The notes under the pieces were generated by a model. The model worked only from the letters and a program-made list of their open reading frames with translations, had not been told where the DNA came from and did no database searches. The position numbers and the translations under genes were made by a program. Shown here in pieces: positions 3,985-63,519 of a DNA stretch of 64,000 nucleotides. This DNA is from Bacillus sp. AFS059628. Lineage in GTDB: Bacteria > Bacillota > Bacilli > Bacillales > Bacillaceae_G. Each line of letters starts with the position of its first letter. The stretch's first letter is position 1. The stretch lies in contig NZ_NVEC01000073.1 of the NCBI RefSeq assembly GCF_002571225.1, positions 1 to 64,000 on the forward strand, in the 5' to 3' direction.

Positions 3985-6663
3985 TCATCCTTTCTTTAAC
4001 TTTTTCTGTAAGCGATACAATTCATTCATCGCTTCTAAAGGTGTCATATCAAGTAAATCAATTTTTTTAATTTGCGTCAGTACTGCCGTTTCTTTTGCAT
4101 CTAAAACTGGCTTGTCTTGTTTTTTCGAAGACTGTTCTCCACCAAAGAATGATAGTTGTGATTCTTCTTCAGTCTCTACTTTCGTCTCTTCGATTTCTAC
4201 TGGTTCTTCTTTTACAACTACAGGCTCTGGAATAACTTCTTGCGCCTGCACTTTTACTTCTACACGCTTTGGAATAATAATTTCTTCCTGTCCTTCTAGC
4301 TGTGCTAACACTTCTTTCGCACGAGCGATCAAGCTATCTGGAAGCTCCGCAAGTTGCGCAACGTGAATTCCGTAACTTTTATCTGCTGCACCGTCTTGAA
4401 TTTTATGAAGGAATACTACTTTTCCGTTCTCTTCAATAGCTGAAACATGTACATTCTTCAGTTGATCTAAACTTTCTTCTAGCACCGTCAATTCATGATA
4501 ATGCGTAGAGAATAACGTTTTCGCACCAATTTGATCGTGAATATGTTCAATGATGGCTTGTGCAAGTGCCATACCATCATACGTAGATGTACCGCGTCCA
4601 ATTTCATCGAATAAAATTAAACTTCTTTCTGATGCGTTTGCAATGGCATTTTTCGCTTCTAACATTTCGACCATAAATGTACTTTGACCTGAAATTAAAT
4701 CATCCGCTGCACCAATTCTCGTAAAGATTTGATCAAATACAGGTAATACTGCTTCTGTTGCTGGTACGAAACAACCAATTTGCGACATAACAGTTACAAG
4801 TGCTAATTGTCTCATATACGTACTTTTACCAGACATGTTCGGTCCTGTAATTAAAAAGACATCCATATTCTCTGGCATAATGCAATCATTCGGTACATAC
4901 AATTTCCCGTTCAATACTTTTTCTACGACAGGATGACGACCATCTTTAATAAAGATTTCGCGCTTTGTTGTTAGTACAGGTTTTACAAACTGTTCTTCTT
5001 CACTAACTGTCGCAAAACTTTGCAGTACGTCTAATTCACTAATTACTTTCGCTAAATGCTGTAATTTCGGAATAAATACTTTTACTTCTTCACGAAGTGC
5101 TGTAAATAAATCATATTCTAGTTGTACAATTTTTTCTTCTGCTTCTAAGATTAATGTTTCTTTTTCTTTTAGTTCATCTGTAATGAAACGCTCCGCATTA
5201 GCAAGCGTTTGTTTACGCTCATAGCGGCCTTCTGGTAATGCTGTGAGGTTCGCTTTCGTTACTTCAATGTAGTAACCGAAAATACGGTTGTATCCGATTT
5301 TTAACGATTTAATTCCTGTAATATCACGCTCTCGTTTTTCAAGCTCAGCAATCCACGTTTTTCCGTTTTTACTAACGTAACGATATTGATCAAGCTTGTC
5401 ATTATAACCGTCTTTAATAATATCTCCATCTTTAATAGAAAGCGGTGGGTTTTCTTGAATACTTCTTCCTAGTAATTCTGTTAAGCTCTCACATGGATCT
5501 GCGCCTTGAATTAATCTCGCTGCATACGCGTTATCTAACAAACTAATTGCTTCTAAAATAGCTGGCACTTGAAGTAACGAGCGTCTTAACTGTAATAAGT
5601 CACGTGCATTGACATTACCAAATGCAACTTTCCCTGCTAAACGTTCTAAATCATATACTTCTTTTAATTTTTCTTTTAAATCTTCGCGTAAGAAGTAATC
5701 ATTTACAAACGTTTCAACCATTTCCAAACGCTCTTCAATTCGCTCTTTCTGTATAAGCGGACGTTCCATCCACTGTTTTAACATACGACCACCCATAGCT
5801 GTTTTCGTCTTATCTAGTAGCCATAATAATGATCCTGTTTTTTCTTTCGTTCGAAGTGTTTCTGTCAGCTCTAAATTTCGCTTTGAATGCACATCAATTT
5901 TCATAAATTGATTCGTATAGTAAATTTCCACTGGTTGCAAATGATCTAATGAACGTTTTTGCGTTCTTATTACATAGTTAAATAAGCGTCCAACTGCTTT
6001 AATTAACTTTGCTTGTGAAACATTTTTCACAAGGTGTTCTAATCCTTCAGGGATTGCTGTTGCATCTTCATATGAAATCGTCATTTTTAACGTTTCAGTT
6101 AACTTGTTTAGTTCATCTTTAGAAAAGGAAGAATCTACAACAATTTCTTTCGAACCAGTTGCATACACTTCTAATAAAATATCTTCTACTGAACCAGTCA
6201 ATAACGTTACTGTATTTTGTCCAGTCGTTAAATCATTACAAGCTAATGCATATGATCCATCTTCAAAATGTGTTAACGCGGCTAAGAAGTTATTTTCTTT
6301 CTCATCAATCGTACGCCCTTCCATCATCGTTCCTGGCGTAATTAATTGTACGACTTCACGGCGCACTACACCTTTAGCTGTTTTTGGGTCTTCTACTTGC
6401 TCACAAACCGCTACTTTATATCCTTTTTCAACAAGCTGTTCAATATAGTTTTTAGCCGCATGATACGGTACACCGCACATCGGTATACGTTCACTACTAC
6501 CACCGTCTCGGCTCGTTAATGTAATTTCAAGTTCGTGGGCTGCTTTAACCGCATCCTCAAAGAACATTTCATAAAAATCACCTAAGCGGAAAAATAAAAA
6601 GGCATCTTGATAGTCTGCCTTAACTTTTAAATATTGCTGTATCATAGGCGTATATTGCGTCAT
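3985..6663 (-). CDS. mutS: DNA mismatch repair protein MutS
   Basis: MutS recognises mismatches and small loops and recruits MutL. The N-terminal mismatch-binding domain shows the Phe-x-Glu wedge in GDFYEMF near residue 30. The ATPase domain has the Walker A GPNMSGKS and Walker [17 protein letters not shown] (about residues 600-700). Near the C-terminus QLSFF matches the beta-clamp binding motif known in Bacillus MutS, which is followed by a final dimerisation helix. The 892-aa length is usual for Bacillus. It is the first gene of a mutS-mutL pair. Confidence 0.98.
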
Positions 6664-32084: not shown

Positions 32085-32111
32085 ATCTCTTACATCCTTT
32101 GTTACACACTT

Positions 32112-32188
32112 TTCCCCTCATAGTCCAGCAATTCATGGTTGCCGGGTAGAAACTTATGGACCTTATCTCCAAGATTATATGAGGCAGT
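32112..32188 (-). ncRNA. purine riboswitch aptamer, guanine type
   Basis: The minus strand shows the conserved purine aptamer core in order: CCTCATATAATC, the first hairpin, AAGTTTCTACC, the second hairpin, and GACTATGAGG closing the P1 stem. The specificity base in the GACTATG segment (near 32,123) is C, which in characterised aptamers selects guanine over adenine. A promoter lies just upstream and an intrinsic terminator downstream. Guanine excess would therefore stop transcription of the GntR-nupNOPQ genes. Confidence 0.92.
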
Positions 32189-32204
32189 GATTCTTTTCGA
32201 AGTA

Positions 32205-56400: not shown

Positions 56401-58700
56401 GTCACTTACTCTTTGACCAAACTTATCCATATCATTTTGTGCCTGTTTGGATTTTTCGTTCAGATCAACTATTGCTATACCTAGCGCCCCCACAGCAAGA
56501 ACAGCTCCAGTAATAGCTAAAGCAATCGGGTTTGCTAATAAAGCACCTATCCCCATTGCTAAAAACCCTACAGCTGTTGTTACCCCTGCTATCCCAAAAG
56601 CCAATAAAGCACTTTTTGCAATCATTTGTTGTGTTGATTCGTCTAAATTATTAAACCAATCTACGACCCCCTGAACACCAGATACTACATCAACCAAAAT
56701 AGGCAATAACGCATCACCAAATGACTTTTTAAGAGTATCTACAGCACCACTTAATTCTTCGATTTTTCCTTTTGTTGTATTCATCTTTGTCTCAGCAACT
56801 TCTAATGCTGTTACCTTAGACATTTCTGTATACATGTTTTTAACGCCATTTGCACCCTCTTTATAAAGAATATTTGCTGCACGAATAGCATCTGATCCAA
56901 ACAATGTATACATATATGATTGTCTTTGCTCAGCCGTTAATCCTTGCATCGCCATTTGAAGAATTTCAGCAATATCGGACATTTCTTTCAAATTACCATT
57001 TGAATCGAAAAAGGCATTTGTCATAATACCAGTTTCAAAAGTCAACTTTTGGAACGCCTTCTCTGCTTTTTCAGATCCAACCTTCACACCGGCTTGTTTT
57101 GCAGCGTATTCAGATAAAGCACCAGTTACATCTTTAAATGAATTTGAAGTTGGTTTAATACCTTTTTCTCCAAGAAACTGCATTGCTTTTCCAGTATCAA
57201 TTGTTATTAATCCCAAATCACTAAACATATCGTATGCTTCGTTAGATTTAGGAATTAAGTTTGCTAGCATGGTTTTTAATGAAGTACCTGCATCAGAACC
57301 TTTTACATTCGTTATATATGAGCTCTTTATCTCATATTCTCCAACTTTCATTGGAGTATCGGACTATATCATCATCCTCGCCTTTTACGTTAGGATGGAA
57401 CGCGCTCGTGGAGGTTTCGACGGTTCTCGTTTACTCCCTCTAGTCTCTACACCTTCTGAATATTCCTATCCAGCTTGGCTCGGTATTAGCATAGCTTTCG
57501 CCTTAGCTTCCACCGAATTCACGTCCTTTACGCTGCGAATCTCTCCACAACGGGGCTATATGTTAACCCGTTCTGTGCAAATAAGGCTAATGCTGTTGTT
57601 GTATCTTTAAAACTAAGTCCCACACCAGCTGCAACCGCTGAAACCATTGATAACCCAAACTTCATTTCTCCAACACTAGTTGCTGAAGCATTTGCTGCAC
57701 CAGCTAATAGATCGGCTGCTTGTGCTACCGATAAGTTATCATCCTTAAATGCATTTAGAGCTGTCGAAGCAATTTCTGCTGCATCTCCCAATTCTAATTC
57801 CCCTGCTGTCGCTAAGTTTAAAGCTCCTTCCAAACCGCCATTAATAATGTCAGTGAGGCTTACCCCTGCTTTAATTAGCTCTTCAATACCTTGCCCTGCT
57901 TCCACAGATGAATATTTTGTTTTTTCTCCCATCTGTACTGCAAGTTCGCTAATTTTCTTCATTTCATCGCCAGTTGCACCAGAAACTGCTTGAATATCAG
58001 CCATCTTCTGCTCGAAATTCATAGATTCCTTTACAGCCATCGCAAGTCCAGCACCAATAACTCCAGTCATGGCTGCAAAGGTAGTACCAACCTGTCCACC
58101 TACATCTTGCATTTTATTTCCTGTATCGTGCATCCGTTCCCCGGTACGGTGAAAACGATTTTGTTGCTCGGCTAATTCACGATTCGTTTCTCTTATTTCA
58201 TTTTGAATCCGCTCTTGAGCTGTTTCAGCACGATTCATAGCAATCGTATTGTTATCGATTTGCGTATTTAATCGTTGAAGTGCTTGACCGTTAGATGTGT
58301 ATTCAGCTTGAAGTTGTTTTAATTCTTGCTTTAATTGTTTGGCTTCTTGGGAATTACGTCCGAAATTTTGTACAGCCTGATCATACTGTGTTTCAAGACG
58401 TTCCATAGATGCCGCCAATGTTAAATTTGAAGCTTGTAATTGTTCTTGTTTTTGTCTTGCTTGTTCAATCTTTTGGCGGTAATGTTCTACCTTTTGTCCT
58501 TGTAATGTGAATTTTTCATTCAAATGAGTTAACTTATTTTGTAACTGTTCAACAGAATTACCAAGTAATCTAGCTCTTTCACTCGTTAAATTGAACTCTG
58601 AATCTAATAAACGTAAACCACGATTAATTCCTGCTACTCCATTTTCAAAACGTTGGGTATCCAACGTGACTCGTGCGCCAATTTCCATATCTCCAGCCAT
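53425..58700 (-). CDS. tail tape measure protein, gene split by a group I intron
   Basis: The tape measure sets tail length and helps DNA entry. Exon 1 is 58700-57566 and exon 2 is 57305-53425. Joining them restores one frame of 1671 aa, with AQNGL|KGSDAGTSLKTMLANL at the junction. Exon 1 is mostly coiled coil (about 20-190), then the TP901-type core (MTGVIGAGLAMAVKESMNFEQKM). Exon 2 adds hydrophobic helices, further coiled coils and several degenerate repeats of about 45 residues (e.g. GQFNVQTLVQGMQNG). The second part alone seems to start at an ATG inside the intron, so standard annotation gives two incomplete genes. Confidence 0.92.
57306..57565 (-). ncRNA. group I intron in the tape measure gene (260 nt)
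   Basis: The boundaries restore the tape measure frame. The 5' exon ends ACGGGT, with T at the splice site, and the intron's last base is G. Early in the intron GCCCCGTT can pair with the exon end, with a U-G pair at the splice site and one bulge (P1). Core motifs on the minus strand: TAATACCGAGCCAAGCT, AAGGTGTAGAGACTA and GATATAGTCCG. These are nearly the same as in the recA intron. No endonuclease frame is present. The intron is 67 bases shorter than the recA one. Confidence 0.9.
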
Positions 58701-59328: not shown

Positions 59329-59913
59329 TTATTTGCTTAATGCTGGTGCTGTTTCTGTTGGTGGTGCTGGAACTGTCTTAAACCAATTCGCTGCAACGGT
59401 TGCATCATATCCTGTTTCTTCTTCATCTAAACGATGTCTCCAGTTTCCATCTGAACGTTGGATCGCTTTGCATTTAATTTTAGCCGATTGGAAAGTTGGT
59501 TTATCTTCAGCTGTCTTGTGCTCATCTTCAGGAATTTCAAATTTCGTTTTGTAGTAGCAATAAAAACGGTTTTTCCCATTGTCTTTTGGTAAACGGTATA
59601 ATAACGCTACATATGGAGCAACATCATTTACATTATCGATTACCTGACCTTTAATTAGTTTCTTTCCTAATAGTTCAGCGTAAGTAGATAATGAAATATC
59701 CGCTGTTTCTAATTCGATTTCTACACCACCAAAGGCACTTGCTGTTGCTAGCGGCCCTCCTTCTGCATAGAACGTTACGGATTCATTTTTAGGTGAAGCC
59801 TTGCCACTTACTGCATCTCCAATTTTCTTAGGTGCTGCATACGTAAACTTACCATCTGGTGTTTCTGTCAAAATCGCATAATGTAAATCTCTAAAATCGA
59901 CTGCAATTGCCAT
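59329..59913 (-). CDS. major tail protein
   Basis: A 194-aa tail tube subunit. The start MAIAVDFRDLHYAILTETPD and the pattern of beta strands fit the phi13-type major tail protein family. The position just before the G chaperone gene is canonical. AGGAGG precedes the ATG. The C-terminal TVPAPPTETAPALSK is a Pro-rich end. Confidence 0.88.
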   Translation of the reverse strand: MAIAVDFRDLHYAILTETPDGKFTYAAPKKIGDAVSGKASPKNESVTFYAEGGPLATASAFGGVEIELETADISLSTYAELLGKKLIKGQVIDNVNDVAPYVALLYRLPKDNGKNRFYCYYKTKFEIPEDEHKTAEDKPTFQSAKIKCKAIQRSDGNWRHRLDEEETGYDATVAANWFKTVPAPPTETAPALSK

Positions 59914-60720: not shown

Positions 60721-61055
60721 ATAGATCGCTCCTCGCACACCAAGCATGTCTCTTTATGTTGCTCATCAACATCTACAACAGCTTTTATTTCAAAGAGTCG
60801 GTCATCATACAAAACTCGCATTTTCGAATCAATTCCCCTACGAAATCGCATAAAAAAATTCACTGTACGTACCGCATTTTCGGTATTTCCAGCGAATATT
60901 TCATAGTTAAATCCCTTTCCAAATGGTGTTTTTGCTCTTGCCCAAACAGTGACAACATCTTTCCATTCTGGTGGAATTGGATTCCCTTCTTCATCTTTTT
61001 TATTTGTGATTTCCTGTTGAATTGTTATTCTTTTATTTAATTTACTTGGATTCAT
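60708..61055 (-). CDS. head closure / head-tail joining protein (SPP1 gp16 type)
   Basis: A 115-aa phage head-tail joining protein. The opening MNPSKLNKRITIQ and the WARAKTPFGKGF region match the family. The start is ATG rather than the GTG nine bases before it, as that GTG is within the GGTG Shine-Dalgarno. It overlaps the connector gene before it and gp10 after it. Confidence 0.82.
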   Translation of the reverse strand: MNPSKLNKRITIQQEITNKKDEEGNPIPPEWKDVVTVWARAKTPFGKGFNYEIFAGNTENAVRTVNFFMRFRRGIDSKMRVLYDDRLFEIKAVVDVDEQHKETCLVCEERSIWQK

Positions 61056-61317
61056 GATTATCACCGTTATTATAGTCCCTTAATTGTAATATGGTAGTTT
61101 CTAATGACTGTTTTAACGCAGGGACATTTAATGATTTATCTTGATTCTCATAGTTTAATAAAACATGCGTAATTACCGCTATTTTGTAAAGGGCCTTGTC
61201 ACTTTCAGGAACACCAGAACCTAGTAAGACTTCTTTTGCTCCATCAATTAGAAGTTGGATAATTATATCCTCTTCATTCCCATCAATTTTTAATTTTCCT
61301 TTTATAAGCTCCAGCAT
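61042..61317 (-). CDS. head-tail connector protein (gp6/gp15 type)
   Basis: A 91-aa, helical protein at the first position after the capsid gene, where the DNA-packaging adaptor (HK97 gp6 or SPP1 gp15 type) is encoded. It forms the ring beneath the portal. The pattern EEDIIIQLLIDGAKEVLLGS with the following helices fits the family. It starts nine bases after the end of the FN3 extension. Confidence 0.82.
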   Translation of the reverse strand: MLELIKGKLKIDGNEEDIIIQLLIDGAKEVLLGSGVPESDKALYKIAVITHVLLNYENQDKSLNVPALKQSLETTILQLRDYNNGDNHESK

Positions 61318-61325
61318 GGTATCAC

Positions 61326-61607
61326 CTACGATCCTGAAGCACTTGTTTTCGCTGATAATTCAACGCTTAACGTTGAACTTAATCCGTTATTCCCAACAGC
61401 TTTCACTTGATAAGAATATGTTGTATCACCTGTTAACCCTGTATCTTTATAAGTTGTTGCTACTGACGTTCCTACTTGTTTGCCATTACGTAATATTTGA
61501 TATTCTTTAATGCCCCCATCATACACAACAGGAGACCAACTAATGTTGGCCGTTGTTACTGTTGCAGAATCAACTTTTAATCCTGTTGGAGTTTGGGGCG
61601 GATTAGG
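61326..61607 (-). CDS. fibronectin type III domain, +1 frameshift extension of the capsid protein
   Basis: In the +1 frame relative to the capsid gene, a frame of 93 residues begins exactly at its CCC-TAA stop. It reads PNPPQTPTGLKVDSATVTTA, then ISWSPV and YQVKAVGNNGLSS, a full FN3 domain. There is no ATG, GTG or TTG before the domain starts; the first in-frame GTG lies in the middle of it. It can therefore only be made whole by ribosomes that shift from CCC to CCT at the stop. The result would be a capsid protein with a surface FN3 domain on part of the subunits. Confidence 0.8.
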   Translation of the reverse strand, partial: PNPPQTPTGLKVDSATVTTANISWSPVVYDGGIKEYQILRNGKQVGTSVATTYKDTGLTGDTTYSYQVKAVGNNGLSSTLSVELSAKTSASGS

Positions 61608-61608
61608 G
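61603..61608 (-). promoter_or_regulatory. +1 translational frameshift site (CCC-TAA)
   Basis: The last sense codon of the capsid gene is proline CCC, followed by the stop TAA. A proline tRNA on CCC can re-pair with CCT one base on while the stop is slow to be decoded. The next codons in the +1 frame enter the FN3 domain. Such shifty stops are known for Listeria phage PSA structural genes. Confidence 0.7.
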
Positions 61609-62745
61609 CGTAACTTTAACTTCTGCGATACGGAATGCAGAGTTTAAAGAACGTTTTTGATCATACCAAGCTGTTAATACAAATAGATATTCTCCTGAAT
61701 CCACATTCTTATCCGTGTCATATGTCATTGCATCATAGTTGATACGGAAAAAGTTAAAGTCTCCTACAATCGGTTTTACTGCCGCGTCAACGAATTCTAC
61801 AGGTTTACCCATTACTTTTTCAGGTGGTGTATCAAAGAAATTTGTTGTTCCGTTAGATAACGATTTAACAATTTTTAAATAGTCTGCATATCGCATAACA
61901 ACCTTAGCATTTTCACGATAATCTTCATGTAAGTCCGCAATTGCATTAGTGATAGATTCAAATAAATCTTCACCTGACACACGTTTTACATCAGATCCAT
62001 TATAGAATGACATATGCCCTAAACCAGATTTCGGTGTAACTGCTAGTGCATCCTTCTTCTCTTTCGCGGCTAATCCTGAACGTAATGCATTTTCTACATA
62101 TTGTGTGAGTTCAACATCGGTACCATGAATAACTGTATCAGAAATTTTTACTTTCACCTTAAATTTATTACGCCCAAATGCCACAGTATCACCTGTAAGC
62201 TTCATTTCTTTCGCTGTTTCTTCATCTGTAATGAAATCATCATCATCAAGTGTGTATGAAATTTTAGGTAATTCTAAGCCTTTAATCGCACTTACTTGAG
62301 AAACTTCTCGTAATTGATTTTTCGCAAAAGGCTCATGTACCAATTCCTTTTGCATATTTGTTGGGAAAAACTTATCGCCTCCCGTTGAATTACCAGCTGG
62401 TAAAGCAATTAAAGCCTTAACATCATCTGATACTGCTCGACCTTGTACTGCCGCACGAATAAATTCTGCTTTTGCCGCTACTTCTTTTTGTTTCGGATCT
62501 TCAATACCAGTAATAACATTTTTCTGTTGAGCAAATTTAGCTGTTTGTTCTGCTTCTAGTTGATCATGTTGTTGTTTTACAACATCAAAGCGAGCTTGTA
62601 AGTCTGCTTTTGATGTTTGCAATACTTTGATATCATTTAACGAAGCTGATGGATCCATAGCCTTTGTAGCCAGTTCATTTTCTGTTTTCGCCAATTGTTG
62701 GCCAATTGTTGCCATTGCTTGTTTTAACTCATAAATGGTTTTCAT
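61603..62745 (-). CDS. major capsid protein (HK97 fold)
   Basis: A 380-aa phage capsid protein. The first about 100 residues are a charged coiled coil (delta/scaffold domain), expected to be cut by the neighbouring protease. From about 115 on the HK97 fold begins (GGDKFFPTNMQKELVHE), with the A-domain near the C-terminus (EYLFVLTAWYDQKRSLNSAF). The stop codon is the shifty CCC-TAA discussed separately. It lies between the protease and connector genes. Confidence 0.93.
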   Translation of the reverse strand: MKTIYELKQAMATIGQQLAKTENELATKAMDPSASLNDIKVLQTSKADLQARFDVVKQQHDQLEAEQTAKFAQQKNVITGIEDPKQKEVAAKAEFIRAAVQGRAVSDDVKALIALPAGNSTGGDKFFPTNMQKELVHEPFAKNQLREVSQVSAIKGLELPKISYTLDDDDFITDEETAKEMKLTGDTVAFGRNKFKVKVKISDTVIHGTDVELTQYVENALRSGLAAKEKKDALAVTPKSGLGHMSFYNGSDVKRVSGEDLFESITNAIADLHEDYRENAKVVMRYADYLKIVKSLSNGTTNFFDTPPEKVMGKPVEFVDAAVKPIVGDFNFFRINYDAMTYDTDKNVDSGEYLFVLTAWYDQKRSLNSAFRIAEVKVTP

Positions 62746-62766: not shown

Positions 62767-63519
62767 TTAAAATATTGTTTCTAAATAGGCAAGATTTGCT
62801 TTTGAATCTGCAACGATTTTTTCTCGTAATTCCTTTTCTTCTATGCTCATAATTGATTTATCGGATTGCATTTGTAATAGTTGTTGTGGCACATTCTGAT
62901 ATTGTTTCGCCCACTTGTCATCAAATGCATATGCAACAGCTTGGTTAGCTTCAACAATTTCATCACAAAGCCCTAATTCTAAGCATTGTTCGGCTGTTAA
63001 CCATGTATCTTCTTCAAGCATTTCGTATAACATTTCTTCTGACATTTTTTCACCAGATCGATCAAGATAATACTGGCACATTGCCTGGCTAATACGTTCC
63101 ACATCATCAGCCGCTTTTCTTAATTGCTTAGCATTACCCCAAGCTCCTGTCATTGCATGGTGAATCATCATTAATGAATTATTTGGCATAATAATACGTT
63201 TTGAAATCATTGGTAAAACAGATGCACAAGATGCCGCTACCCCATCAATATGCGATATAATATCGGCTGGATGTCGTTTTAACATAGCGATAATAGCCAT
63301 TGCTTCAAACACACTACCTCCAGGACTATTAATGTATAGATTGATAGTCTCAATGCCATCACCCAATGCTTCCAATTCGTTTTTGAAAGTAATAGATGAC
63401 ACCTCGCCATATTCTTCCCATGCATATTTTGTAATTTCTCCATAAATAAAAACATCAGCCGTTTTACCATTCGCCGATGCTTTCATTTGAAAAAACTTAT
63501 TCTGTTTGTTCTTTGCCAC
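62767..63519 (-). CDS. ClpP-like head maturation protease
   Basis: A 250-aa serine protease of the ClpP (S14) fold that trims the capsid during head maturation. The catalytic Ser is in DGVAASCAS (about residue 100), the His in MMIHHAMTG, and the Asp further on. INSPGGSVFEAMAI is the oxyanion strand. The C-terminus is a charged extension. It overlaps the portal gene by 23 bases, normal in the portal-protease-capsid order. Confidence 0.92.
   Translation of the reverse strand: MAKNKQNKFFQMKASANGKTADVFIYGEITKYAWEEYGEVSSITFKNELEALGDGIETINLYINSPGGSVFEAMAIIAMLKRHPADIISHIDGVAASCASVLPMISKRIIMPNNSLMMIHHAMTGAWGNAKQLRKAADDVERISQAMCQYYLDRSGEKMSEEMLYEMLEEDTWLTAEQCLELGLCDEIVEANQAVAYAFDDKWAKQYQNVPQQLLQMQSDKSIMSIEEKELREKIVADSKANLAYLETIF

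Follow-up and report, generated by a model that had tools for sequence, protein, structure and literature searches.

Predicted +1 frameshifting at CCC-TAA appends an FN3 domain to a major capsid protein of Bacillus sp. AFS059628, with probable half-domain tags at the same site in related phages

The 64,000-nucleotide (nt) stretch of Bacillus sp. AFS059628 analyzed here (contig NZ_NVEC01000073.1, positions 1 to 64,000; hereafter the window) contains a phage major capsid protein gene that ends in CCC-TAA and is followed in the +1 frame by a complete fibronectin type III (FN3) domain. Programmed +1 frameshifting at the end of this gene is strongly supported by sequence comparison. Very probably, a +1 shift at CCC-UAA, aided by RNA structure, gives a subset of capsid subunits carrying FN3, and other modules occupy the same site in relatives. 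The elements of the junction are the following.

62745-61603, minus strand: major capsid protein gene (HK97 fold), zero-frame product of 380 amino acids (PF05065, phrog_10, 7rwz_B)
61608-61603, minus strand: slip site CCC-TAA (CCC 61608-61606, TAA 61605-61603), CCC to CCT being the +1 step
61607-61326, minus strand: +1-frame extension, an FN3 domain of 93 residues including the shared proline, plus stop (PF00041)

The capsid protein matches PF05065 (Phage_capsid; E 1.2e-11, 45 bits, exceeding the gathering score of 24.2) and the major head protein family phrog_10 (E 1.9e-51). Among solved structures, its nearest relative is 7rwz_B (E 1.7e-148); the entry, in which Ccm is present as well, is taken to be that of the phi12/SaPIbov5 work (PMC8569155, in excerpt), a link drawn in this analysis. 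The capsid open reading frame (ORF) closes with AAA GTT ACG CCC TAA. From CCT at 61607-61605, the +1 frame continues for 92 more codons to a stop at 61328-61326; upstream of CCT it is open for 12 codons only. It contains no ATG, GTG or TTG in the window ahead of the GTG at 61526, which is FN3 residue 28, and its single CTG lies at 61640. The extension matches PF00041 over profile positions 2-79 of 84 (E 2.5e-9, 37.6 bits, cut-off 25). An AlphaFold2 model made with 11 relatives has seven strands (mean predicted local distance difference test [pLDDT] 96.2, predicted template modeling score [pTM] 0.85), and the FN3 fold was judged from these strands, without a fold-library search. An initial annotation of the window had described the 380-amino-acid gene terminating in CCC-TAA, a complete FN3 in the +1 frame with no usable start ahead of it, and the junction peptide PNPPQTPTGLK; all were reproduced, the first start-like codon (GTG 61526) falling inside the domain.

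Ratios of nonsynonymous to synonymous change (dN/dS) for the window FN3 are about 0.15-0.23 against the related loci L001, L066, L097 and L115 (dN 0.065-0.216, dS 0.437-1.062), with dN 0.065 and dS 0.437 for L001 and ratios of 0.20-0.23 for the other three. Differences by codon position among five window-like FN3 sequences are 0.151, 0.123 and 0.401. By these estimates, the FN3 frame is under purifying selection. Between L001 and the window, FN3 is 88% identical and the capsid 58%; therefore, the module has moved between capsids. Locus L001 is "Stenotrophomonas phage TS-12" (MW302330), whose head module is 73% identical to that of the window. Other matches of this head module are Gram-positive phages, and the stated Stenotrophomonas host looks doubtful.

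The RNA directly 3′ of the slip site is predicted to fold unusually well. The relevant features are as follows.

61497..61602, minus strand: predicted folded region, a putative 3′ RNA stimulator that overlaps FN3 coding sequence (z -3.16)
61594..61598, minus strand: outer consensus helix, 5′ arm CCCCA (RNAalifold, 14 loci)
61514..61518, minus strand: outer consensus helix, 3′ arm TGGGG (RNAalifold, 14 loci)
61581..61588, minus strand: inner stem, 5′ arm CAACAGGA, pairing with 61526-61533
61526..61533, minus strand: inner stem, 3′ arm TCCTGTTG (from the stem list)

Folding over about 105 nt past the stop was compared with synonymous recodings drawn from pooled capsid codon usage. The window has a minimum free energy of -34.4 against a mean of -22.3 for its recodings (z -3.16), and z is negative in all 14 loci with a complete FN3 (-1.73 to -3.99, mean -2.87; repeat mean -3.00). 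At six control positions within these capsid genes, z averages between -0.48 and +0.59, and the following 105 nt of FN3 give a mean z of -0.18. RNAalifold on the 14 loci returned one helix, CCCCA from the fifth base past the stop with TGGGG about 75 bases on (window positions), in which two of five pairs have double changes; pairing of these outer arms alone gives p below 0.05 in 9/14 loci. Stems like the window's inner stem are listed in L001, L066, L097 and L115.

Other extension types also have predicted structure past the stop. Relative to dinucleotide shuffles, the 85 nt past the stop fold with z of -3.4 to -6.3 in 13 loci in which the extension is half an FN3 (described below). For a two-helix structure in this region, 79.2% of cells are paired and the covariation score was reached in 0/500 shuffles, although related sequences can exceed such shuffles without structure; two of five measures were reached in 80 and 108 of 500 shuffles, and slid versions scored lower. 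A general pseudoknot in this group was dropped: such stems were found by reading in 6/13 loci, and the nested structure was counted instead. In eight loci with an IGxAxIG peptide as extension, a hairpin test gave p from 0 to 0.054, and folding of the whole region was unremarkable in three.

The same junction recurs in distant capsids. Capsid scans gave 40 genome loci and 80 viral loci (the latter among 140 matches listed), which with TS-12 and the window make 122 capsid loci with a stop, or 97 once near-copies are removed; L002, a tail stretch without a capsid, is outside this count. In the comparison of related phages that the initial annotation had proposed as a check, CCC-stop is conserved: 42 of the 97 non-redundant loci close in it, and 41 of these 42 have a +1 continuation of at least 15 codons, the sole locus without one, L082, sitting near a contig end. 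CCC encodes 42 of 65 terminal prolines versus 38 of 1,154 internal prolines counted (p 7e-39), and at least 18 open +1 codons come after 41/42 CCC stops versus 13/55 other stops (p 1e-14); both p values are nominal because the sequences are related. The extensions comprise 14 complete FN3s, 13 half FN3s, 7 IGxAxIG peptides, 4 P/E-rich sequences, 1 Big_2 (L062) and 2 others (L034, HeH-like by reading, and L063), with 1 locus lacking an extension. Seven of the remaining 55 loci were typed as an A-run with a -1 frame and 48 as neither, a class that still conceals cases like that of L023, whose -1 frame encodes a complete FN3. Capsids ending at or near an A-run, with Ig-like or short extensions in the -1 frame, were observed in L017, L021, L022, L023, L029, L031, L118 and L119; unlike the other A-run cousins, L023 was not typed as such. 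The capsid of phi 12 (L256) ends CCC-AGC-TAA, and its +1 frame is a short tail ending KSAVISAE that resembles L065 and is perhaps the remnant of a tag.

In the proposed mechanism, ribosomes would pause at CCC, the last capsid codon ahead of UAA, and peptidyl-tRNA-Pro would re-pair one base on, from CCC to CCU. A fraction of ribosomes would then proceed in the +1 frame and produce a capsid subunit with a C-terminal FN3, RNA folded over the first ~100 nt of FN3 code probably stimulating the shift. Extended subunits, presumably a minor fraction, would enter heads and display FN3 on the outside, where it might serve adhesion; the initial annotation had suggested that it could bind host polymers. 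Other C-terminal modules, including a half FN3 completed by a separate decoration protein, would occupy this recoding site in relatives. Computation shows the junction, its frame, selection acting on that frame, unusually strong folding and recurrence of the junction in distant capsids; we infer the occurrence and rate of the shift, the incorporation into heads and the outward display.

Several results weigh against this interpretation. Individual control windows for folding spread widely (z -3.81 to +3.20). The outer helix is short, with four of its five pairs broken in 1-3 of 14 rows, and pairing of its arms has p above 0.05 in 5/14 loci, the window among them (0.082). The dN/dS ratio of the window FN3 is higher against L035, the most distant sequence tested (dN 0.646, dS 1.560), and against L044, where changes are few (dN 0.010, dS 0.030). 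A GGG proline tRNA is present in two of six relatives' genomes (G002 and G005), so an absent cognate tRNA is no general condition, and its absence as a general cause of the site was rejected.

It is very improbable that the FN3 part is instead a separate small protein made from its own start. TS-12 has a 111-nt hypothetical gene annotated within FN3, and in 8 of the 14 complete-FN3 loci an in-frame ATG, GTG or TTG (mostly TTG) lies near the junction, in L010 closely preceded by AAGG (by eye, unscored). The positions of these codons are not shared among relatives, however, strong folding sets in directly past the junction, and the window has no start ahead of FN3 residue 28. A start of its own for FN3 in relatives had been named by the initial annotation as telling against frameshifting; the window has none ahead of the domain, and the eight loci carry start-like codons at places that differ between them. 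There is an equally slight chance that the frame is a functionless remnant of an in-frame fusion severed by an indel. Ig-like domains often move between phage genes, and out-of-frame landings occur (PMC5009743, in excerpt), but decay is opposed by low dN/dS against four relatives, an open frame in 14 loci, strong folding, and other capsid and tail genes in which FN3 parts follow the same CCC-stop. Joining of capsid and FN3 by other recoding is scarcely credible in the window, despite the seven A-run cousins among the 97 loci and the -1 FN3 of L023, since stop read-through stays in the zero frame and would meet another stop at 61572, transcriptional slippage would have just three Cs to act on, and the -1 frame is open for nine codons.

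The predicted +1 shift at CCC-stop would also precede extensions that are not complete domains. In 28 loci, referred to as split, the extension is a half FN3 of 21-24 amino acids only, and the remainder of FN3 is supplied by a separate gene in 27 of them; the contig of the 28th ends early. When a profile of the 14 complete FN3 extensions was searched against short +1 peptides, 18 SW-type peptides (13 non-redundant) matched positions 1-22 of 91 only (E 8e-8 to 6e-3; next peptide E 0.25). A downstream ORF matching only about positions 30-89 (E up to 1e-3) was found in 15 of these 18 loci. The others are L086 and L091, whose partners score 14.9 on their contigs (L142, L143), and L057, whose contig ends early with the partner start visible by eye. 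In 11 loci, the partner genes encode 119-252 residues and have their own start, a purine-rich leader (by eye) and any of the three frames; Pfam assigns fn3 to 11/11 (first member 32-83 of 84) and Big_2 to 10/11.

The arrangement was also approached from the partner: scanning viral sequences with the aligned partners gave 79 loci, 26 of them with an ORF whose early part matches the FN3 remainder. In 24 of the 26 a tag lies upstream, always at CCC-TAA or CCC-TAG. Eight of these 24 contigs were also in the capsid sample. The exceptions are L135, at a contig edge, and L171, which is GC rich and has no CCC. In L171 (2930-3060), a small ORF closes with in-frame letters resembling FN3 A-B, an overlapping ATGA follows, and the next ORF carries the remainder; FN3 is split there at the same point, without CCC. 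Among 298 Lederbergia-related genomes, the partner-half profile was matched in 22 at 1e-10, yielding six split loci (L226-L231), all with CCC-TAA and a tag; L226 and L228 were already in the sample, and L230 resembles L160. Other printed loci from these genomes are complete FN3s, several after CCC-stop, or parts of long proteins, and L234 and L239 each have two complete FN3s after CCC-stop words.

The gene ahead of the tag was tested in nine split loci and one complete-FN3 locus (L187). It is phrog_10 in eight, phrog_544 (major head protein) in L147 and phrog_2729 (virion structural protein) in L131, and nine of the ten have a Pfam capsid family. None has a blastp match to the window capsid at E below 0.1; compared mutually, 22 of 25 capsids join one linked cluster. 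Mantel tests on 25 loci, not corrected for descent, gave r 0.24 (p 0.017) for tag and partner, r 0.26 (p 0.013) for tag and capsid, r -0.006 (p 0.48) for partner and capsid, and a partial r of 0.25 (p 0.014) for tag and partner. The signal for a tag moving with its partner instead of the capsid is thus weak and mixed. A search of 50,697 phage records with the L110 partner gave 179 partial matches, none spanning 80% of it. This partner is matched nearly full length (4253-4708, E 1e-32) by phrog_341, whose label, major tail protein, may be wrong.

In many split loci, a second tag follows another gene. A scan of 934 CCC-TRA words gave 72 tag-like peptides, of which 46 are then followed by an FN3 remainder, 5 are at contig edges and 21 are neither; these counts include duplicates, and L229, in the 21, is a first tag whose partner was missed by the search pattern. 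Most of the 21 are second tags in split loci, 2.4-3.0 kb past the first. Such a tag is present in 18 of the 28 split loci (L133/L134 and L158/L160 being close pairs). Among the other ten, L024, L117, L086, L056, L131, L132, L139 and L147 have none within 2.9-3.8 kb, L057 has only 207 nt, and L137 was excluded by a 600-nt rule. In L137, two tags (2571 and 2868) stand about 300 nt apart ahead of one partner, the second on a 57-amino-acid ORF. The gene ahead of the second tag encodes a tail protein in all ten of the 18 loci tested, with phrog_88 (major tail protein) as the best family in eight, phrog_238 in one and phrog_11502 in one. Three longer genome stretches (29.7, 39.8 and 19.9 kb, two being the L110 and L003 loci) contain two tags and one partner each, with no further FN3 match above print limits, and no separate partner gene for the tail tag was found in the stretches scanned.

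The IGxAxIG group has the same layout. A second such tag lies 2.4-2.7 kb on in L005/L064, L008, L051/L052/L068 and L104, preceded by phrog_88 in 4/4, and each of these four loci has one partner with a collagen-like stretch. L076 has no second IGxAxIG tag; L053, L069 and L223 were too short for this check, and L058, at a contig end, was outside it. The capsid gene of the cultured Virgibacillus phage Mimir87 likewise closes in CCC-TAA and has an IGEAEIG tag, in a stretch that did not include its tail gene. Among ten complete-FN3 relatives with ~3 kb past the site, nine have no second extension, as in the window, and L035 has a different, 227-codon extension after its tail protein.

From these comparisons, the +1 site in relatives probably serves a docking system. 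A 21- to 24-amino-acid tag comprising FN3 strands A and B would be placed on a fraction of major capsid and major tail subunits, and one decoration protein, starting from strand C and mostly carrying Big_2, would complete FN3 on both head and tail. The IGxAxIG tag and the collagen-like protein would follow the same plan, and the window FN3 would be the one-piece form. Structure prediction is compatible with such pairing. In seven loci with tag and partner in one frame, the sequence from the tag to the FN3 end was translated as a single chain, with stops as residues and the intergenic gap as linker, purely as a modeling device with no read-through claimed. The AlphaFold2 model of the L117 surrogate has an FN3 fold (mean pLDDT 89.5, pTM 0.78), in which the tag contributes strands 5-12 and 16-22 and the partner five more, and linker residues 27-30 fall below a pLDDT of 50. 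Foldseek of this model against the PDB returned mainly FN3 domains, e.g., 1k85 (template modeling score 0.80/0.82), among the top 50 of 482 matches (E up to 0.001). The model shows compatibility, not binding, because an FN3-like chain is expected to fold as FN3.

It is unlikely that the two halves are instead joined in one polypeptide by a second recoding event, or that each pairs elsewhere. The gap from tag stop to next start is 8-50 nt in 11 loci, and tag and partner share one frame in several. Against joining, the partner frame relative to the capsid is 0 in L060, L015 and L024, 2 in L056 and L011, and 1 in L055, L003, L083, L110, L041 and L117; the partner start has its purine-rich leader; and the tail tag has no partner gene of its own in the stretches scanned. 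If the docking reading is correct, frameshifting sets the number of docking points per virion, beyond appending a domain, and head and tail can share a single partner protein as decoration. The tag and partner would be a natural split domain useful for particle display. The model would also account for short +1 tails left unannotated behind capsid and tail genes, and CCC-stop, a +1 tag and structured RNA would provide a sequence rule for finding them.

The window itself shows no split-FN3 arrangement, its FN3 being complete, and no separate decoration gene follows; a head-tail adaptor gene comes next. The capsid gene lies among genes for a portal, a ClpP-like protease, head-tail proteins and a major tail protein, including the following.

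62767..63519, minus strand: ClpP-like head maturation protease, adjoining the capsid gene (PF00574, E 6e-29)
61042..61317, minus strand: head-tail adaptor gene, immediately after FN3 (phrog_40, E 2.6e-14)
59329..59913, minus strand: major tail protein gene, without CCC-stop (phrog_88, E 6.8e-53)

Inspection of the frames past its stop showed no visible +1 extension of the major tail protein, and a megablast search for plasmid relatives of the capsid-FN3 module gave no match. The tail chaperone gene (59305-58716, minus strand) is followed by an overlapping ORF and has a run of nine A, then G, near its end; an A-run with G near the end of a tail chaperone gene is the kind of place where G/GT-type frameshifts occur. 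A Group I intron (Rfam RF00028, 86.5 bits) at 57339-57575 (minus strand) straddles the point where two tape-measure-like ORFs (58700-57528 and 57351-53425) meet, and would explain why this tape-measure-like gene is seemingly cut in two. A purine riboswitch aptamer (RF00167, 78.9 bits) lies at 32101-32202 (minus strand).

The closest precedent for the window is gp17.1* of Bacillus subtilis phage SPP1, in which a +1 shift at CCCUAA adds FN3 to the tail tube protein at 3:1 (PMC6316719 and PMC9022992, in excerpt). Both systems combine CCC-UAA, a +1 shift and FN3 on a major structural protein; the SPP1 domain is on the tail tube, whereas that of the window is on the capsid and the window tail has no visible extension. 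Bacillus phage 268TH003 (PV504776) likewise has FN3, 42.9% related to that of the window, on its tail, in a major tail protein annotated as a two-piece joined coding sequence. The initial annotation had cited Listeria phage PSA, which does shift +1 at CCC in its capsid (cps) and tail (tsh) structural genes, with a pseudoknot or stop as stimulator (AJ312240; PMC5009743, in excerpt). Of these two, the tsh shift belongs with that of SPP1 to the CCC-stop kind. PSA is the less close precedent, since its capsid site is CCC-UCC and its extension is short and helical-looking rather than FN3; the idea that the PSA capsid carries the same kind of domain was dropped, as the extension reads as HeH/LEM-type and helical rather than Ig-like (by eye, no search). 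Ig-like and FN3 domains, some frameshifted, are known on phage structural proteins including the major capsid protein (Fraser et al. 2006, as cited in PMC9022992 and PMC5009743), and the excerpts of those two articles make no mention of a half-domain tag with a second protein. Separate decoration proteins on capsids, as in the split relatives, are known from the phi29 gp8/gp8.5 head fibers and T4 Hoc, where either side may have Ig-like parts (PMC7602432); these lack a frameshifted half-domain tag, and the words "frameshift," "fn3" and "split" are absent from the portion of that text examined. The literature searched, in which subscription journals are sparsely covered and articles partly represented, gave no instance of half-FN3 tags shared between head and tail and served by a single partner; the partner family itself is already in PHROGs, as phrog_341. 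Because the SPP1 and PSA shifts and Ig-like capsid domains have been reported, the CCC-UAA +1 FN3 mode of the window counts as already known, and its half-domain relatives, as judged from their sequences, look new.
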